This document shows positions 577 to 52,483 of a DNA stretch of 64,000 nt, in pieces. The stretch covers positions 191,413 to 255,412 of the forward strand of contig NZ_JAHKQH010000045.1 of NCBI RefSeq assembly GCF_018861025.1, given 5' to 3'. Every line of letters starts with the position of its first letter. Positions within the stretch are counted from its first letter, which is position 1. The stretch is from Psychrosphaera sp. B3R10. Lineage in GTDB: Bacteria > Pseudomonadota > Gammaproteobacteria > Enterobacterales > Alteromonadaceae. Made by a program: the position numbers and the translations under genes. Below the pieces are notes generated by a model. That model was given only the letters and a program-made list of their open reading frames with translations, did not search any database and was not told the origin of the DNA.

Positions 577-734
577 GTGGAAAATTCATTTATTAAATAG
601 GTTTGTTTTAGATGACCGAGTTCATAAACATGAGAATCAAACAAAGTTATATTGGAGTGACCACCAGCATTAAGGTAGTCTTATTCCATCCCTAAGCGGG
701 GATAGTTAATCAAAACCTAGGGTAGCTCCCGAAA

Positions 735-756
735 AAGGCGATCACCCAATCGCCTT
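735..756 (+). terminator. Hairpin, weak terminator or RNA element
   Basis: The arms AAGGCGAT and ATCGCCTT enclose a 6-nt loop and are followed by GGTTTTGG, a poor U tract. It sits in the 215-bp gap between the 123-aa gene and the DUF6387-like gene. It could end the upstream transcript or be a structured leader of the downstream gene. A second small hairpin (ATCCC/GGGAT, 688-703) lies just before it. Confidence 0.35.
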
Positions 757-791
757 GGTTTTGGTCTTAATTTGGGTGTCGCGGGGGCGAT

Positions 792-18146: not shown

Positions 18147-18503
18147 TTGCACTATGGCGCGGTTGTGAGATATTTTTTACTTTTTATAGGCTGGTCCTCG
18201 GTTGTTGGTAGCTTTGGCGATGGTGCACTTGGCCTTTACGCGCTGTGGATTAATTTTTTGAACGATTGGACGCTATTAGATTTTTCAATTAATGAATTTT
18301 TAAAAGACTACGTGCCTTTTATATATTGGGTTAAAAGTATCGCGTTTTATGTGCTGCCTGAAAACATCGTTTTGTGGTTGTTTAATTTACCCGCCTTATT
18401 ATATTTTCCGACACGAATTGTTATGAGTATTATTATTGGCTGGTGGGCTTTGTCAAAAGCCGAACAGTTGGCAAATAGAAAAGTCCCAGTTAAGCAGAAC
18501 TAA
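18147..18503 (+). CDS. Hypothetical membrane protein ending in 10-bp repeats
   Basis: A 118-residue protein with about three hydrophobic segments (8-25, 50-72, 92-108). The start is unsure: TTG 18147 is the longest; GTG 18165 begins VRYFLLFIGW, a more usual membrane-protein start. The stop codon falls inside the second unit of a 10-bp tandem repeat, so repeat gain or loss would change the C-terminus (VKQN). No family is recognised. Confidence 0.45.
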   Translation: MHYGAVVRYFLLFIGWSSVVGSFGDGALGLYALWINFLNDWTLLDFSINEFLKDYVPFIYWVKSIAFYVLPENIVLWLFNLPALLYFPTRIVMSIIIGWWALSKAEQLANRKVPVKQN

Positions 18504-18540
18504 GCAGAACTAAGCAGAATTAAGCACAACTAAACTCAAC
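18491..18540. repeat. Five 10-bp tandem repeats
   Basis: The units are TAAGCAGAAC, TAAGCAGAAC, TAAGCAGAAT, TAAGCACAAC and TAAACTCAAC, in exact register and decaying downstream. They overlap the 3' end of the preceding gene. Because 10 is not a multiple of 3 and each unit carries TAA, any copy change leaves a stop nearby. Confidence 0.8.
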
Positions 18541-46505: not shown

Positions 46506-49500
46506 ATGGCAACTATTCCCTTATCACTAAGTCAAAAAGACATATGGACTGAGATTTTAGCTTGGTCAAATAGTTGTCATCTAAATATTGGTGGTTTCTC
46601 TCGGATTGTAGGAGAAATTGATGCCGCTTTATTTCAGCAAGCGTTAGACAATTTAACGGCAGCGGAAGATGCATTGAGGCTTGTGCCGACAAGTGAAGGC
46701 AATCAAATATTACTCGATACTTACCGTTATCCGCTAGTCATTAAAAATTTTACAGATCAACCAAATGGTGAAGATTTAGCAACGTTATGGCAACAAGGAT
46801 GGATGTCGGAGCCGTTTGAAATAGGCAAGCAGCCAACAATACGTTTTGCTTTGGTGACTGCCACCCCTCAATTACATTATGTGGTAATTCAGAGTTTGCA
46901 CATTGCTATGGATGGCTGGAGTTTATCTAATGCAGTGCAGAAGCTTGGGCAACATTACACTTCATTATTAACAAATGACCCCTCATTGATTGCGGAAAGC
47001 CGAGACTATCAAGACTTTATTGTCGACTCGAATAGTTATAAGTCAGGTAAGCAATTTCAAAAAGATGTCGATTATTGGAACTTAGCAATACCGCAACTTC
47101 CTGAGCCGGTATTTGAAGCACGGTACAATGCGCCTATCATTTCCGGAGTGTCTCGGGCCTATGTCGAAAACTGCAAAATTCAACGAGCACTAATAGACCA
47201 GTTAAAAACCTTATGTACTGCCAATAAACATACTATTTTTCATGGGTTTTTGGCGCTGTTGGCGATTTATATATTTAAAAGTCAAAACCGTAGTGAGTTT
47301 ATAATTGGCGTTCCAAGTCTCAATCGTGGGGGAAACAAGTTTAAGAATACCCTCGGTATGTTTGTTGGGGTTATACCGATAAAGGTCACGCTAGAGCAGG
47401 ACGATACACCAGCAACCGTCGTAGAAAAAATATCGAAATTTCTAAAGCAAGCTTACCGGCATGCAAAATATCCTTTGAGTGAGCAATTTAAACGATTAAA
47501 AGCGATAAAGCAGGGGCGAGATCGTTTATTTGACGTCATATTTTCATACGAAGAATTTGAGTTTGCTAGTCAATACGGAGATGCTAAAGTCGGTGCGACA
47601 AATCAAACATTCGCCGGGTTTAGTCGCTATCCATTAGCAATCTCGGTATGTGACTTTCTGGATGGAGACGATGCTGAAATTGTTTTAGAGGGTAACGAGC
47701 AGTACTTCACAGCACCTGAAACCAATTTGATTGGCAATCGACTTATCTACTTGGCTGAGCAAGTCATTAATGACTTTAATATGCCAGTGAGTTCACTTGA
47801 TATTTGTTCATCAGCCGAGCGCACCAGACAATTGACGGCAGGTATAAGTCTGGCTGAAAACCCTCAGGCAGTATTGCCTTTTGTGAAGCAATTTGAACAA
47901 CGTGCATTATTACATCCAAAATCCAACGCCTGTATTTCAGCAGAGGTAAAACTGACTTACTCAGAACTGCTGCATTGCTCTAATCAGTTAGCGCTGCAAC
48001 TATTGGCAAATGGGGTCGGCAAAGGCGATATCGTCGCTTTTGTTCTGGACAAAGGCGCAGAGGTTCTCATCGCGCAGTTAGCCATTACTCAAATTGGCGC
48101 AGCGTTTTTGCCTAATGACGTTGAAATACCCATCACCCGTTTGGAATTGATATTAAGTGAAAGCCAGTCTAAATGCTTATTGGTAAACAACAATATTGAT
48201 AGTCGTTTTAAGGCGTTAGACGGTACACAAATTACAATAAATGTTGGTTCACTTTTAAAAGAAAAAGCATCCACAGCTCAACTGGCCGATATAACCGTTG
48301 AACCGGATTTATGCGCTTATGTGTTGTTTACATCTGGTACAACAGGAAAACCGAAAGGGGTAGCCGTAAGTCATAGAGCATTATCGCTACGATTGTCGTG
48401 GATATGCGAAAAATGGAGCATAACTTCCACTGATAGGTCTCTCAATGCGACTCAAGTTAATTTTGATCCTGCATTAATCGAATTGTTAACGCCAATAATA
48501 CGGGGCGGCAGTGTGGCCTTTCCACCGCCGGGCAGGCTATTACCTGAAGCTTTACCAGCATATTTGGTTCAATTTAACGCGACAATGATGGCGTTTGTTC
48601 CCTCTACATTAACGCGTTTCTTAGATGGCATTAAACAACCAGATAAACTGAAATTACGAGTTTGTTGTTGTGGTGGCGAAATTTTGTCAAAGGAAATTGC
48701 AGTTCGTTTTATCAAACAAACAAATGCCATTTTATATAATGTCTACGGCCCGACCGAGGCAACTATTTTTGCCTCGAGTTGGCAAGTTAAGTTAAACGAT
48801 GACAATCATAAAGCGATGCCAGTCGGCGCCGCACTTACCGACGTTCAGCTTTATATACTAGATGAACAACATGCTTTAATGCCCTATGGTGTCGTGGGGC
48901 GAGTGTTTATTGGTGGACTGACACTGAGCGATGGTTATCTTCGTCAAGATGACAGTAACGCGGATAAGTTCATTACAGTTGATTCTATTTCGAGCCATCC
49001 GCTTTATGATACAGGTGACAGCGGCTGGTTAGATACCGATGGGGTACTGCATTTTAGTGGTCGCAATGACAGACAGATAAAACTTCGCGGTTATCGTATC
49101 GAGTTAAATGAGATCGAGAATAGCCTGCTGCATTTGCCTGGTGTGAAGGCCGCAGCCGCAAAACTGGTAGGGCAAGGATCTAAATCTCAAATTCACAGTT
49201 GGGTCGTTATAGGATCAGAAGCACAACCTGAAGCGTATCGGTCTAAGTTATCTGGGATCTTACCAGACTACATGTTACCAAATCGGATCCACATTTTAGA
49301 TCAAATGCCTTACACACCAAACGGTAAAATTGACTACCCTAAATTAATAAATAGCGGTCATGTGATCGAAAAGTCAGCTGCCCGTGAACCGGTAGGTCGG
49401 TTGGAAAAGTCGATATTAAAAATCTGGAAAAACGCGCTAGAACAACCTAATTTAACGGTACTTGATAACTTCTTTGAAAGTGGCGGCGATTCATTATCTG

Positions 49501-50327
49501 CTGTAATTACCCTCCACGAAATAGAAAAGCTACTAGGAAAAAGGCTGTCTTTGCATCAGTTGGTTGAAAACGCAACCGTATCGTCATTAGCCGAGTGCGT
49601 CGAAGCCGAATTAAATTTACCGCAGTTGTTGGTCAGCCTTGGTGATACAACTCGTAAAGTGAGTATGTATATTTGTGCGTCCGGTAACGGCGATATGCTG
49701 CGATTTAAAGCGCTTGCCAAGGAGATGTATGGTGTCTGCGATCTGCATATGTTGCAACCTCCAGGAAATCAAACAAGCATTGAAATAAAAGAATTAGCGA
49801 CACTTTATGCAAATAAAATAAAGCAACGTGGCGAATCTGAAGTCTATATTGCAGGGTTTTCGGTCGGGGGACTCGCAGCGCTAGAAACAGCAAAGTTACT
49901 TCAAAAAGATAATATTAAAGTAAATGAGTTATTTATTGTCGATACAATATTGCTCCGTATGCCAAAACTCGGACTCATGGCGTGGCGTCTTATAATGAAG
50001 ATGTTGGGTGAAAACGGAGGGCGGCATCGACGATTTATTTCGACTCAATTGGGCAATACACTTAGAGATAAGGGATTGTTTATGCAAGTTAAAGCGATGA
50101 AGGGTTATCGATTGTCTAAGTATGACGGTTCGTTAGTGCTATTAAAATCAACGGCTTACCGATACTTACAAAAGTGGTTATTAGGCGGTTGGTATAAAGA
50201 AGTAAATGCGGATCTGGTGTCGTTTAAAATTGATACGCCGCACAATGGCTTTTTTGAACCAGGCCGTGTAAAAATGTTAGCTCAAAAATTAGCTGAACGT
50301 ATTAACCTACAAAACGATGGAAGTTAA
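46506..50327 (+). CDS. Single-module NRPS, C-A-PCP-TE
   Basis: A 1273-residue one-module synthetase. The condensation domain (about 5-430) keeps H132-I-A-M-D136-G, with Leu in place of the first His. The adenylation domain (about 460-955) has LFTSGTTGKPKGVAVSH near 607, NVYGPTEATIFA near 745, YDTGDSGW, the RNDRQIKLRGYRIELNEIE block and NGKIDYPKL. The carrier domain has the phosphopantetheine Ser996 in FFESGGDSLSA. The thioesterase domain (about 1055-1270) has Ser1119 in GFSVGG and a late His in TPHNGFF. All domains look intact. A leading C domain with no loading module suggests it acylates one amino acid with a donor made elsewhere. The product is unknown. Confidence 0.93.
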   Translation: MATIPLSLSQKDIWTEILAWSNSCHLNIGGFSRIVGEIDAALFQQALDNLTAAEDALRLVPTSEGNQILLDTYRYPLVIKNFTDQPNGEDLATLWQQGWMSEPFEIGKQPTIRFALVTATPQLHYVVIQSLHIAMDGWSLSNAVQKLGQHYTSLLTNDPSLIAESRDYQDFIVDSNSYKSGKQFQKDVDYWNLAIPQLPEPVFEARYNAPIISGVSRAYVENCKIQRALIDQLKTLCTANKHTIFHGFLALLAIYIFKSQNRSEFIIGVPSLNRGGNKFKNTLGMFVGVIPIKVTLEQDDTPATVVEKISKFLKQAYRHAKYPLSEQFKRLKAIKQGRDRLFDVIFSYEEFEFASQYGDAKVGATNQTFAGFSRYPLAISVCDFLDGDDAEIVLEGNEQYFTAPETNLIGNRLIYLAEQVINDFNMPVSSLDICSSAERTRQLTAGISLAENPQAVLPFVKQFEQRALLHPKSNACISAEVKLTYSELLHCSNQLALQLLANGVGKGDIVAFVLDKGAEVLIAQLAITQIGAAFLPNDVEIPITRLELILSESQSKCLLVNNNIDSRFKALDGTQITINVGSLLKEKASTAQLADITVEPDLCAYVLFTSGTTGKPKGVAVSHRALSLRLSWICEKWSITSTDRSLNATQVNFDPALIELLTPIIRGGSVAFPPPGRLLPEALPAYLVQFNATMMAFVPSTLTRFLDGIKQPDKLKLRVCCCGGEILSKEIAVRFIKQTNAILYNVYGPTEATIFASSWQVKLNDDNHKAMPVGAALTDVQLYILDEQHALMPYGVVGRVFIGGLTLSDGYLRQDDSNADKFITVDSISSHPLYDTGDSGWLDTDGVLHFSGRNDRQIKLRGYRIELNEIENSLLHLPGVKAAAAKLVGQGSKSQIHSWVVIGSEAQPEAYRSKLSGILPDYMLPNRIHILDQMPYTPNGKIDYPKLINSGHVIEKSAAREPVGRLEKSILKIWKNALEQPNLTVLDNFFESGGDSLSAVITLHEIEKLLGKRLSLHQLVENATVSSLAECVEAELNLPQLLVSLGDTTRKVSMYICASGNGDMLRFKALAKEMYGVCDLHMLQPPGNQTSIEIKELATLYANKIKQRGESEVYIAGFSVGGLAALETAKLLQKDNIKVNELFIVDTILLRMPKLGLMAWRLIMKMLGENGGRHRRFISTQLGNTLRDKGLFMQVKAMKGYRLSKYDGSLVLLKSTAYRYLQKWLLGGWYKEVNADLVSFKIDTPHNGFFEPGRVKMLAQKLAERINLQNDGS

Positions 50328-50335
50328 ATTTAGAC

Positions 50336-50404
50336 AAAAAAAAGCGAGCATTAAAAAATGCTCGCGAATAAAACAACAACTTTCAGGGAATAAAACTTAA
50401 TAAC
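50336..50404 (-). ncRNA. Predicted small RNA, array unit 1
   Basis: The -35 TTGAAC is at 50434-50439 and the -10 TCTAAC at 50411-50416, so a start near 50404 is estimated. The terminator stem is at 50344-50365 (arms GCGAGCATT/AATGCTCGC) with eight Ts to 50336. The RNA would be about 69 nt. It ends nine bases from the NRPS stop codon. Confidence 0.75.
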
Positions 50405-50517
50405 TATAAAGTTAGACAGGCTAATTCAATTTAGTTCAAATAAACCCAAATTAATTTTTCAATCCATCGTCTATCGGCATTTACCAATAACCCCTGTGTG
50501 ATCTACAAATTTTGAAC

Positions 50518-50586
50518 AAAAAAAAGCGAGCATTAAAAAACGCTCGCGAATAAAACAACAACTTTCAGGGAATAAAACTTAACAAC
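50518..50586 (-). ncRNA. Predicted small RNA, array unit 2
   Basis: The -35 is at 50616-50621, the -10 at 50593-50598 and the terminator stem at 50526-50547. One stem base differs from unit 1; the change gives a G-U pair in the minus-strand RNA but an A-C clash in a plus-strand RNA, which supports the assigned strand. Confidence 0.75.
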
Positions 50587-50697
50587 TATAAAGTTAGACA
50601 GGCTAATTCAATTTAGTTCAAATAAACCCAAATTAATTTTTCAACCCTTCGTCTATCGGCGTTTACCAATACCTTGCGTGATCTACAAATTTTGAAC

Positions 50698-50766
50698 AAA
50701 AAAAAGCGAGCATTAAAAAATGCTCGCGAATAAAACAACAACTTTCAGGGAATAAAACTTAACAAC
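50698..50766 (-). ncRNA. Predicted small RNA, array unit 3
   Basis: The -35 is at 50796-50801, the -10 at 50773-50778, and the terminator stem at 50706-50727 is identical to unit 1, with eight Ts. The upstream spacer is of a second type shared with unit 4. Confidence 0.75.
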
Positions 50767-50886
50767 TATACAGTTAGACACAGCAATTGGATTTAGTTCA
50801 ATAAAATGAGAAATAAATTTAAAGCTTTATTTTTAGGCGGTCAGGAGCTGTATTTTCGCTGCTTATTCCGACCTCAAATGTTAGGC

Positions 50887-50955
50887 AAAAAAAAGCGAGC
50901 ATTAAAAAATGCTCGCGAATAAAACAACAACTTTCAGGGAATAAAACTTAACAAC
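50887..50955 (-). ncRNA. Predicted small RNA, array unit 4
   Basis: The -35 is at 50985-50990, the -10 at 50962-50967, and the terminator stem is at 50895-50916 with eight Ts. The core is identical to the other units. Confidence 0.75.
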
Positions 50956-51075
50956 TATACAGTTAGACACAGCAATTGGAATTAGTTCAATAAAACGAGA
51001 ATTAAATTTAAAACTTTATTTTTAGGCGGTCAGGAGCCGTATTTTCGCTGCTTATTCCGACCTTAAATGTTAGGC

Positions 51076-51144
51076 AAAAAAAAGCGAGCATTAAAAAATG
51101 CTCGCGAATAAAACAACAACTTTCAGGGAATAAAACTTAATAAC
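51076..51144 (-). ncRNA. Predicted small RNA, array unit 5
   Basis: The -35 is at 51174-51179, the -10 at 51151-51156, and the terminator stem is at 51084-51105 with eight Ts. Its upstream spacer is diverged from those of units 3 and 4. Confidence 0.75.
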
Positions 51145-51261
51145 TATACAGTTAGACACACTCATTGCATTTAGTTCAATAAAATTCGAATTAAATATAG
51201 AGTTTTTAATTGGGGCGTTAAGAAATGAGATTGAGGTTTTTAAGAAATTTAAATTTTAGGC

Positions 51262-51329
51262 AAAAAAAACGAGCATTAAAAAATGCTCGTGAATAAAACA
51301 ACAACTTTCAGGGAATAAAACTTAACAAC
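51262..51329 (-). ncRNA. Predicted small RNA, array unit 6
   Basis: The -35 is at 51359-51364, the -10 at 51336-51341 and the terminator stem at 51269-51290. The basal G-C pair of units 1-5 is replaced by A-U through changes on both arms, a compensatory change that keeps the stem. Confidence 0.75.
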
Positions 51330-51423
51330 TGTACAGTTAGACACGCTATGTGAATTTAGTTCAAAAAAATCGAAATTATTTTCTCAACGACTTACTATTT
51401 ACTAATAAACGCGAATATCAAGC

Positions 51424-51491
51424 AAAAAAAAACGAGCACTAATAAATGCTCGTAAATAAAACAACAACTTTCAGGGAATAAAACTTGAAAC
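51424..51491 (-). ncRNA. Predicted small RNA, array unit 7
   Basis: The -35 is at 51521-51526, the -10 at 51498-51503 and the terminator stem at 51432-51453. It shares the compensatory basal A-U pair with unit 6 and has a further change that is G-U only in the minus-strand RNA. It is the outermost and most diverged unit, yet its 32-nt core is unchanged. Confidence 0.72.
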
Positions 51492-51526
51492 TATAAGGTT
51501 AGACAGGCTAATTTTAAAAAGTTCAA

Positions 51527-51868: not shown

Positions 51869-52483
51869 ATGTTCACAAAAATTATAGCCACAATTTTTTT
51901 TAGCTTGCTTCTTTACGGTTGCACGACCCCCCCGCCAAAAAATGTAAATAACATTTGCGAAATTTTTGAAGAACGACCGGATTGGTGGGATGCAGCTAGT
52001 GATATGCAGGACAAGTGGGGAACCCCGGTGAATGTCATCATGTCTATGATGTATCAAGAGAGCTCCTTTAGAGCCGATGCTGCGCCTCCAATGGAGTATT
52101 TTCTCGGATTTATTCCTATTGGGCGGGCGAGCAGTGCGTATGGTTATTCTCAGGCTAAAACTGGTACCTGGGATGAATATATAAAAGAGACTGGAAATAG
52201 TTGGGCTGACAGGGACGATTACGATGACGCTATTGATTTTATGGGGTGGTTTACAAATAAAACAAATAAAATCAATAAAGTATCGAAATGGGACGCTAAA
52301 AATCAGTATTTAAACTACCATGAGGGGTGGGGTGGTTATAAGCGTAAAACTTACCGTAAGAAACAATGGCTAGTTCGTGTTGCAAATAAAGTTGATAGTC
52401 GAGCTAAAACCTATGGACAGCAATTGAAAGGGTGTGAAGATTATCTAAATTCAAGCTGGTTGTGGCGCCTTATTTTTTATTGA
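51869..52483 (+). CDS. Lytic-transglycosylase-like lipoprotein
   Basis: A 204-residue lipoprotein: signal peptide with lipobox LYGC (Cys18), then an SLT-type region with Glu64 in MMYQESSF as the probable catalytic acid and the AYGYSQAKTGTWDEY block that matches the second SLT motif (GLMQ-like GYSQ). It would cleave peptidoglycan glycan strands from the outer membrane. The C-terminal part (YHEGWGGYKRKTY) is also typical of this subgroup. Confidence 0.8.
   Translation: MFTKIIATIFFSLLLYGCTTPPPKNVNNICEIFEERPDWWDAASDMQDKWGTPVNVIMSMMYQESSFRADAAPPMEYFLGFIPIGRASSAYGYSQAKTGTWDEYIKETGNSWADRDDYDDAIDFMGWFTNKTNKINKVSKWDAKNQYLNYHEGWGGYKRKTYRKKQWLVRVANKVDSRAKTYGQQLKGCEDYLNSSWLWRLIFY

Follow-up and report, generated by a model that had tools for sequence, protein, structure and literature searches.

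A tandem array of seven predicted small-RNA units

The stretch of Psychrosphaera sp. B3R10 DNA analysed here at its full length of 64,000 nucleotides (the window) carries seven tandem units on the minus strand, which together span exactly 50336-51526, as an earlier note on this DNA had described (Table 1). All seven have the promoter layout TTGAAC, 17 nt and TCTAAC, a core of 32 nt (AAGTTTTATTCCCTGAAAGTTGTTGTTTTATT) without any difference among the copies, and a terminator made of a 9-pair stem followed by a run of 8-9 T. The RNA length of 68-69 nt proposed in the earlier note was about right. If transcription begins seven bases downstream of GTCTAA, a position chosen after the GAAAG start of micA, the predicted lengths are 69 nt for two units and 70 nt for five. 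Likewise, the proposal that variable spacers separate constant promoters, cores and terminators is borne out by the relatives (see below) but not by all spacers of the array itself, which are not all independent: two adjacent 189-bp repeats are 95% identical.

Table 1. Positions of the seven units and of other features of the window (numbered from its first nucleotide), with the scores of model R2 described in the text.
Feature	Position	Strand	-35	-10 (TCTAAC)	Predicted RNA	RNA length	R2 (bits)	Remarks
Unit 1	51424..51526	-	51526-51521	51503-51498	51492-51424	69 nt	39.8	
Unit 2	51262..51364	-	51364-51359	51341-51336	51330-51262	69 nt	37.5	
Unit 3	51076..51179	-	51179-51174	51156-51151	51145-51076	70 nt	36.9	
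Unit 4	50887..50990	-	50990-50985	50967-50962	50956-50887	70 nt	39.0	
Unit 5	50698..50801	-	50801-50796	50778-50773	50767-50698	70 nt	38.1	
Unit 6	50518..50621	-	50621-50616	50598-50593	50587-50518	70 nt	38.1	
Unit 7	50336..50439	-	50439-50434	50416-50411	50405-50336	70 nt	37.5	
SLT_4 lipoprotein gene	51869..52483	+						Pfam PF19489; 204 aa; divergent neighbour of the array, kept within the genus and beyond
NRPS-like gene	46506..50327	+						1273 aa; single module (Condensation, AMP-binding, PP-binding, Thioesterase)
int-alpA RNA (RF02996)	710..778	+						42.7 bits, above cut-off
Tandem repeat	18491..18533							10-bp unit TAAGCAGAAC, 4.3 copies

The array stands out clearly from its surroundings. 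Tandem Repeats Finder gave the region scores of 988 and 1008, and a finder combining promoter and terminator returned exactly the seven units from both strands of the window, compared with three matches, none of them unit-like, from both strands of 680 kb of control DNA. Between 49800 and 52000 there are eight terminator-like sites where shuffled sequences lead one to expect 1.7, and seven of them are the stems of the units. The core, searched with up to three mismatches in the 4.74-Mb genome, matched seven times, always in the array (reversed-pattern control, 0). Folding predictions for three window units leave GUUGUUGUUUUAUU largely unpaired.

The end of unit 7 adjoins the 3' end of the plus-strand NRPS-like gene, which stops 8 bp short of the last terminator of the array; other genes occupy this side in the relatives that we read. 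The SLT_4 lipoprotein gene served as a synteny anchor, separate from the RNA genes. Directly after the T run, G[CT]C (often GCCTA) occurs in 50 of 101 distinct units (window and loci L083-L259) and in 2 of 44 strong control terminators from stretches of three genomes; it may act in pausing or termination, or belong to some longer element. Elsewhere, the int-alpA RNA at the left window edge suggests a mobile element there, and a short tandem repeat lies at some distance from the array.

Unit promoters of the sigmaE type by sequence

By their sequence, the promoters are of the sigmaE (RpoE) type and not of the sigma70 type. A sigma70 scan reported none of the seven unit promoters and revealed no promoter excess (7 found, 7.2 expected). 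The motif of the units is GAACT...TGTCTAA; TTGAACT and TGTCTAAC are invariant over the seven copies, and AACT and GTC.AAC are invariant over 21 aligned Psychrosphaera units from eight genomes. Reading by eye, we found GAACTTTTT...GTCATA upstream of rpoE in all eight Psychrosphaera genomes; a scripted pattern gave no match there because this -10 was outside the pattern. Taken together, the invariant boxes, the motif upstream of rpoE and the null result of the sigma70 scan argue for the sigmaE assignment. The micA and rybB promoters of Salmonella also have sigmaE -35 and -10 motifs, conserved in other gamma-proteobacteria (PMC1804206). RpoE itself scored above the curated cut-off in 8 of 8 Psychrosphaera genomes. 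The host genome has 12 matches to RpoE-like sigma factors, the eleven further ones weaker, so that RpoE is a probable, not a certain, assignment. When the strict promoter pattern was used as a regulon finder, it occurred at 11 places in the host genome, seven of which are the array and four of which correspond to the level of the reversed control, so this exact motif revealed no wider regulon. Hfq is encoded in 8 of 8 Psychrosphaera genomes, and together with this gene the T8-9 tail in 7 of 7 units and the open core are features of Hfq-dependent sRNAs, a group to which the array RNAs probably belong.

Copy number varies among Psychrosphaera relatives

NCBI taxonomy places Psychrosphaera in the Pseudoalteromonadaceae, Alteromonadales. 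Family f1, the family of the host in our genome tool, appears to be broader, because its units resemble named Pseudoalteromonas and Colwellia loci. With up to three mismatches, the 32-nt core matched none of the other 59 genomes in a set of 60, since the relatives diverge more than that, and viral contigs contained no exact copy of the core. Relatives were instead found via the conserved lipoprotein gene, which all eight genomes of the genus carry. Divergent from it are two units each in G004, G005 and G007, three in G006 (one weak), four in G002 and four in the G003 array; in G001 the array reaches the contig end at both sides, with two units per side, the outer one cut. The variation in copy number suspected earlier is therefore real.

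The seven other Psychrosphaera genomes and many other genera keep the promoter boxes, a core and the terminator where the intervening DNA changes, as expected from the earlier suggestion of separate sRNA genes under selection. Copies in relatives differ in their 5' parts and vary in core length, and five of the nine pairs of the consensus terminator stem show double compensatory changes. A check for relatives in which promoter or terminator pairs are not conserved, proposed in the earlier note, turned up no such case. A tree of 24 Psychrosphaera units unites the seven window copies in a single group with a support of 100/100, pointing to recent duplication or homogenisation in the host lineage. 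The gshA gene of the window genome lies on another contig with a unit-free flank, so the array persists without an adjoining gshA.

Model R1, built from the 21 Psychrosphaera units, was used as a lead only. Two weak R1 matches on opposite strands in G003 (513278-513431) are a palindromic terminator and no unit. An eighth, weak match in the host genome (G000 C44:46309-46414, locus L428, minus strand, 32.7 bits) lacks a sigmaE promoter and lies just 3' of an unrelated gene for a predicted secreted protein ending at L428:1098. It consists of CTGGAAGTTGTTGTTG and then a strong terminator with T9 and GTCT, and is possibly a 3'-UTR RNA having the pairing core of the array in common. One MAG contig titled Desulfuromonadaceae (L184) encodes a lipoprotein 69% identical to that of the window, and this identity indicates that the contig is probably misbinned and gammaproteobacterial.

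Units antisense at the gshA 3' end in a wider family

At E<=0.01, R1 matched 50 of 295 family genomes, many of them weakly. Because many of these weak matches lay between gshA and the lipoprotein gene, we adopted gshA as an anchor. It is present in 72 of 78 relatives, and the 3' flanks of 70 of these 72 were examined (G047 and G056 were left out). In f1, units lie antisense at the gshA 3' end, 1-4 per genome and within 1270 bp, in 37 of 47 genomes, adding up to 55 antisense units and no sense unit; since the strict finder misses further units seen on inspection, 37 of 47 is a floor. The same finder reported two tandem units in each of the two genomes of family f2, presumably Shewanella, and one unit in an enteric-like genome of f18, which is Rfam MicA. 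The remaining 20 genomes, from 17 families, gave none at gshA, and among these families is f10, which has Rfam MicA there. Candidates at f5, f12 and f20 were added by R2, a second model introduced below. The two f2 loci (L139 and L142) have a different core (GTGCAAGAGTTGTTTTTTCATTTTT), antisense at gshA in both, and their tandem pair is an independent-looking duplication.

The lipoprotein anchor gave the same orientation bias. Upstream antisense units were found at 26 of 80 named lipoprotein loci, with 43 antisense and 0 sense units: five in Colwellia sp. RSH04, four each in Colwellia sp. D2M02 and P. saromensis, and one each at the Pseudoalteromonas and Rheinheimera loci. Shewanella accounts for most of the 54 negative loci. 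R2, applied to 39 of the 80 loci, found units at four negative ones (L200, L235, L238 and L250) and weak matches at two more. TCCCT is present in 77 of the 101 distinct units and a looser form of it in 94. Five arrays (L106, L112, L117, L182 and L236) mix cores, CCTCCCTGGACTGCTTTC, which can form a hairpin, and TTCCCTTAGTGTTTCATG, so that the RNAs of a single locus differ in their pairing regions.

Relation to MicA

In E. coli, micA occupies the antisense strand of the interval from gshA to luxS, at a distance of 8 bp from gshA; the published placement of MicA agrees (PMC2956633). A MicA-like place, antisense at the gshA 3' end, is found in the relatives of the genus and in the 37 f1 genomes; the host genome itself has no unit there. 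The earlier note could not assign the core to a named family, and indeed no Rfam family reached its threshold for the units in the window; at the gathering score and at lax E-values, only chance-level names came up for them. MicA had no match in the window, was absent among 18 lax Rfam matches over the array and did not appear in the host genome at E<=1. At the gathering score on 20 loci, Rfam recognised MicA in two, L140 and L135. The array is outside the Rfam MicA family.

Two further models separate promoter from RNA body. R2 was built from one unit per genus over 29 genera, without Psychrosphaera and without MicA, and includes the promoter. In the window it recovered 7 of 7 units at 36.9-39.8 bits, the next best match having 15.9 bits. 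In all 23 records that it was given (21 loci above the Rfam MicA cut-off, two of them given twice), it also found the MicA place, at 23.9-44.2 bits, with nothing else at E<=1. E. coli micA scored 41.1 bits and rybB 18.1 bits, micL was not called, and the maximum over 680 kb of control DNA was 19.6 bits. R3, the RNA part only with the promoter left out, again recovered all seven window units (32.7-37.0 bits), and its 12.9 bits for E. coli micA are noise given a control maximum of 19.7. Among the 21 Rfam-MicA loci, only L070 (f10) exceeded this maximum with 26.6 bits, and L073 equalled it with 19.8; the Rfam MicA scores of these two loci, 55.8 and 47.4 bits, are both over the cut-off. None of the f2, f5, f12 and f20 candidates was found by R3, and R1 found nothing at E. 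coli micA. The units and MicA have place and promoter in common, and by these two features of the sequence the sigmaE RNAs at gshA, MicA included, are the nearest relatives of the array. The units probably share descent with MicA via intermediates, a descent that R3 does not directly show for the RNA body.

MicA has been described in a review as conserved in Enterobacteriaceae by BLAST, with one Lactobacillus match (PMC4618604). Bordetella CT_532 was proposed in 2025 as a MicA homolog, and its level was unchanged in an rseA mutant (PMC12235514).

Predicted pairing with TonB-dependent receptor leaders

The host genome encodes 50 TonB-dependent receptors (Plug matches). We took the region from -60 to +20 as the leader and dropped genes whose leader was short or that had no ATG/GTG start fit for use. 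This retained 47 of 50 receptor leaders in the host (G000), 27 of 28 in G003 and 39 in G061, a genome of another genus, where 42 of 45 had been fetched. The controls for the host were 212 genes from the window and from 14 stretches of 20 kb. The statistics cover TonB-dependent receptors only, with OMP_b-brl genes left out.

The mean duplex energy of the host core was -14.42 for the 47 receptor leaders and -11.99 for the controls (AUC 0.713, p=2.5e-6), a difference reached by 0 of 200 dinucleotide-shuffled cores. Colwellia and Pseudoalteromonas cores on the host leaders gave AUC values of 0.27-0.51, and the reversed own core had a weak receptor preference (AUC 0.594, p=0.02). The preference remained with signal-peptide genes as controls (n=50, p=4e-5), and the residual after base composition was significant (p=2.3e-7), so neither property explains the receptor effect. 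Eleven of the 47 receptor leaders contain AACAAC, compared with 7 of 212 controls. The best pairings fall within about 45 nt upstream of the start codon at L276 (TTTTCAGGGA), L271 (ATAAAACAACAAC) and L284 (AACAACAACTT); L314 and L306 also rank among the top candidate leaders. A candidate seed consisting of UCCCU alone was weakened, as the receptor 7-mers enriched in the host (p<0.01) fall on GUUGUUGUUU and UUUUAUU.

The host core favoured receptor leaders of P. saromensis (AUC 0.67, p=0.004) and, to a lesser degree, of G061 (AUC 0.61, p=0.02), and Psychrosphaera cores also favoured the G061 receptor leaders (0.58-0.65 for three). On their own 27 leaders, the P. saromensis units reached 0.56-0.64, with p<0.05 in two of four. 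Units B and C of G061 reached 0.61 (p=0.02) and 0.56 (p=0.14) on the leaders of their own genome and 0.42-0.51 on the two Psychrosphaera leader sets, and unit A had no receptor preference in any leader set (AUC 0.43). Of 60 shuffles each, the own value was reached by 4 for G003 u1, 0 for G003 u2, 1 for G061 B and 0 for G061 C. In several comparisons with exact k-mers, foreign cores matched receptor leaders above controls; this and the liking of Psychrosphaera cores for G061 leaders count against receptors as targets. On balance, these complementarities make receptor mRNAs somewhat more probable than not as targets of the array RNAs.

Proposed function and alternative explanations

We propose that the array is an amplified set of sigmaE-controlled sRNA genes, probably Hfq-dependent, whose RNAs would repress TonB-dependent receptors; we give this reading a probability of about two in three (0.68). 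Judging from the promoter sequence, envelope stress that frees RpoE would cause all seven copies to be transcribed together. Each copy would yield an RNA of 69-70 nt with a short 5' part, a core UUCCCUGAAAGUUGUUGUUUUAUU that is mostly open in the predicted structure, and the terminator, ending in a U8-9 tail of the kind held by Hfq. From its complementarity, the core would pair around the ribosome-binding sites of receptor mRNAs and lower their translation, and fewer beta-barrel proteins would then arrive at the stressed outer membrane. In Salmonella, MicA and RybB lower omp mRNAs during envelope stress (PMC1804206). The seven copies could plausibly provide a high or graded dose of one regulator, as the earlier note put forward. 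The locus would be the local form of a sigmaE RNA gene that elsewhere lies antisense to the 3' end of gshA, where enterics have MicA; in the host lineage this gene would have been multiplied to seven, parted from gshA and kept beside the SLT lipoprotein gene.

The alternative that deserves most attention keeps the sRNA array and changes its targets: the main ones would be other mRNAs, for example those of small OMPs or a few regulators, and the fit to receptors would mostly reflect A/C-rich leaders. The A+C content of the receptor leaders, 0.577 against about 0.50, points in this direction, as do the exact k-mer matches of foreign cores and G061 unit A with its missing receptor preference. Against it stand the dinucleotide shuffles, the residual after composition and the excess of AACAAC in receptor leaders, and we regard this explanation as rather unlikely, though far from negligible. 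A housekeeping (sigma70) sRNA array is improbable: TTGAAC, 17 nt and TCTAAC do form a loose sigma70-like layout, but the scan recognised none of the seven, and the bases without variation belong to a sigmaE promoter and match the motif upstream of rpoE.

Cis-antisense control of gshA or a neighbouring gene, in place of trans-acting RNAs, would fit the units that many genera have antisense to the 3' end of gshA and their divergence from the lipoprotein gene. It is very improbable for this array, given that gshA of the window genome is on another, unit-free contig, that some relatives have other genes or several hundred bp in between, and that the units have their own terminators and do not require overlap with coding DNA. 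Hardly credible is a set of non-transcribed repeats, be it an integron-like attC array, a REP-type element or a series of plus-strand short reading frames. Every unit does contain GTCTAAC, and GTCTAAC / GTTAGAC is similar to attC core boxes; an 11-codon plus-strand frame starting within the terminator is also readable in several copies. However, unit 6 lacks the ATG, the varying core length in relatives breaks such a frame, the core has no further copy in the genome, and relatives retain the order of promoter, core and terminator with compensatory stem changes at a place fixed across genera.

The proposed repression of receptors by a sigmaE-type array can be set in a wider, more tentative frame. 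The gshA 3' locus may be an old sRNA nursery, in which one sigmaE RNA gene common to Alteromonadales and enterics (there as MicA) was repeatedly duplicated in marine lineages to 2-7 copies; some arrays would keep identical cores for dose, as here, and others would diversify their cores following their own receptor leaders. We hold this scenario to be conceivable and short of an even chance. Were it true, tandem copy number would set the strength with which RpoE switches off TonB-dependent transport. SigmaE-type RNA genes occupy this position in the majority of the marine-family genomes sampled, and this envelope-stress branch therefore appears to be of greater age and plasticity than is on record. 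For marine bacteria and their dozens of TonB receptors, the array suggests a post-transcriptional brake. Its seven copies, each with a promoter of its own, are also a strong example of sRNA gene amplification, in which the effect of RNA dose on outer-membrane repression could be tested directly.

Comparison with known systems

We found no report of these units in the open-access literature searched, with subscription papers mostly outside that search. MicA resembles the units of the relatives in being antisense at the gshA 3' end with its promoter facing the next gene, and resembles the array in the sigmaE-type promoter, the UCCCUG motif, the terminator and a length of about 70 nt, E. coli MicA being annotated with 73 nt (PMC2956633, PMC4618604). 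It differs in its single copy as opposed to seven, in its neighbour luxS where the array has the SLT lipoprotein gene, and in its sequence, of which the array core GUUGUUGUU is not part.

MicL and MicV are sigmaE RNAs that repress outer-membrane proteins. So are RybB, which has a sigmaE promoter (PMC1804206), and VrrA (PMC2628432). In contrast to the units, the genes of all four are at other places, and R2 left rybB at control level and micL uncalled. The Qrr RNAs of Vibrio, which the earlier note offered for comparison, are similar in being several near-identical sRNAs, but this parallel is not supported. Qrr genes are dispersed and near-identical and are controlled by sigma54/LuxO, unlike the array with its promoter boxes of another type. 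In the array there was no Rfam match to Qrr, either at the gathering score or among the lax matches.

The LhrC genes of Listeria are clustered in tandem. The sibling sRNAs LhrC1-5 are induced by cell-envelope stress and repress surface or uptake proteins at the Shine-Dalgarno region (PMC5880928). They differ from the array in their LisRK two-component control and Gram-positive host, and have no Rfam match in the array; as an analogy, they are the best functional parallel to the several envelope-stress siblings proposed here.
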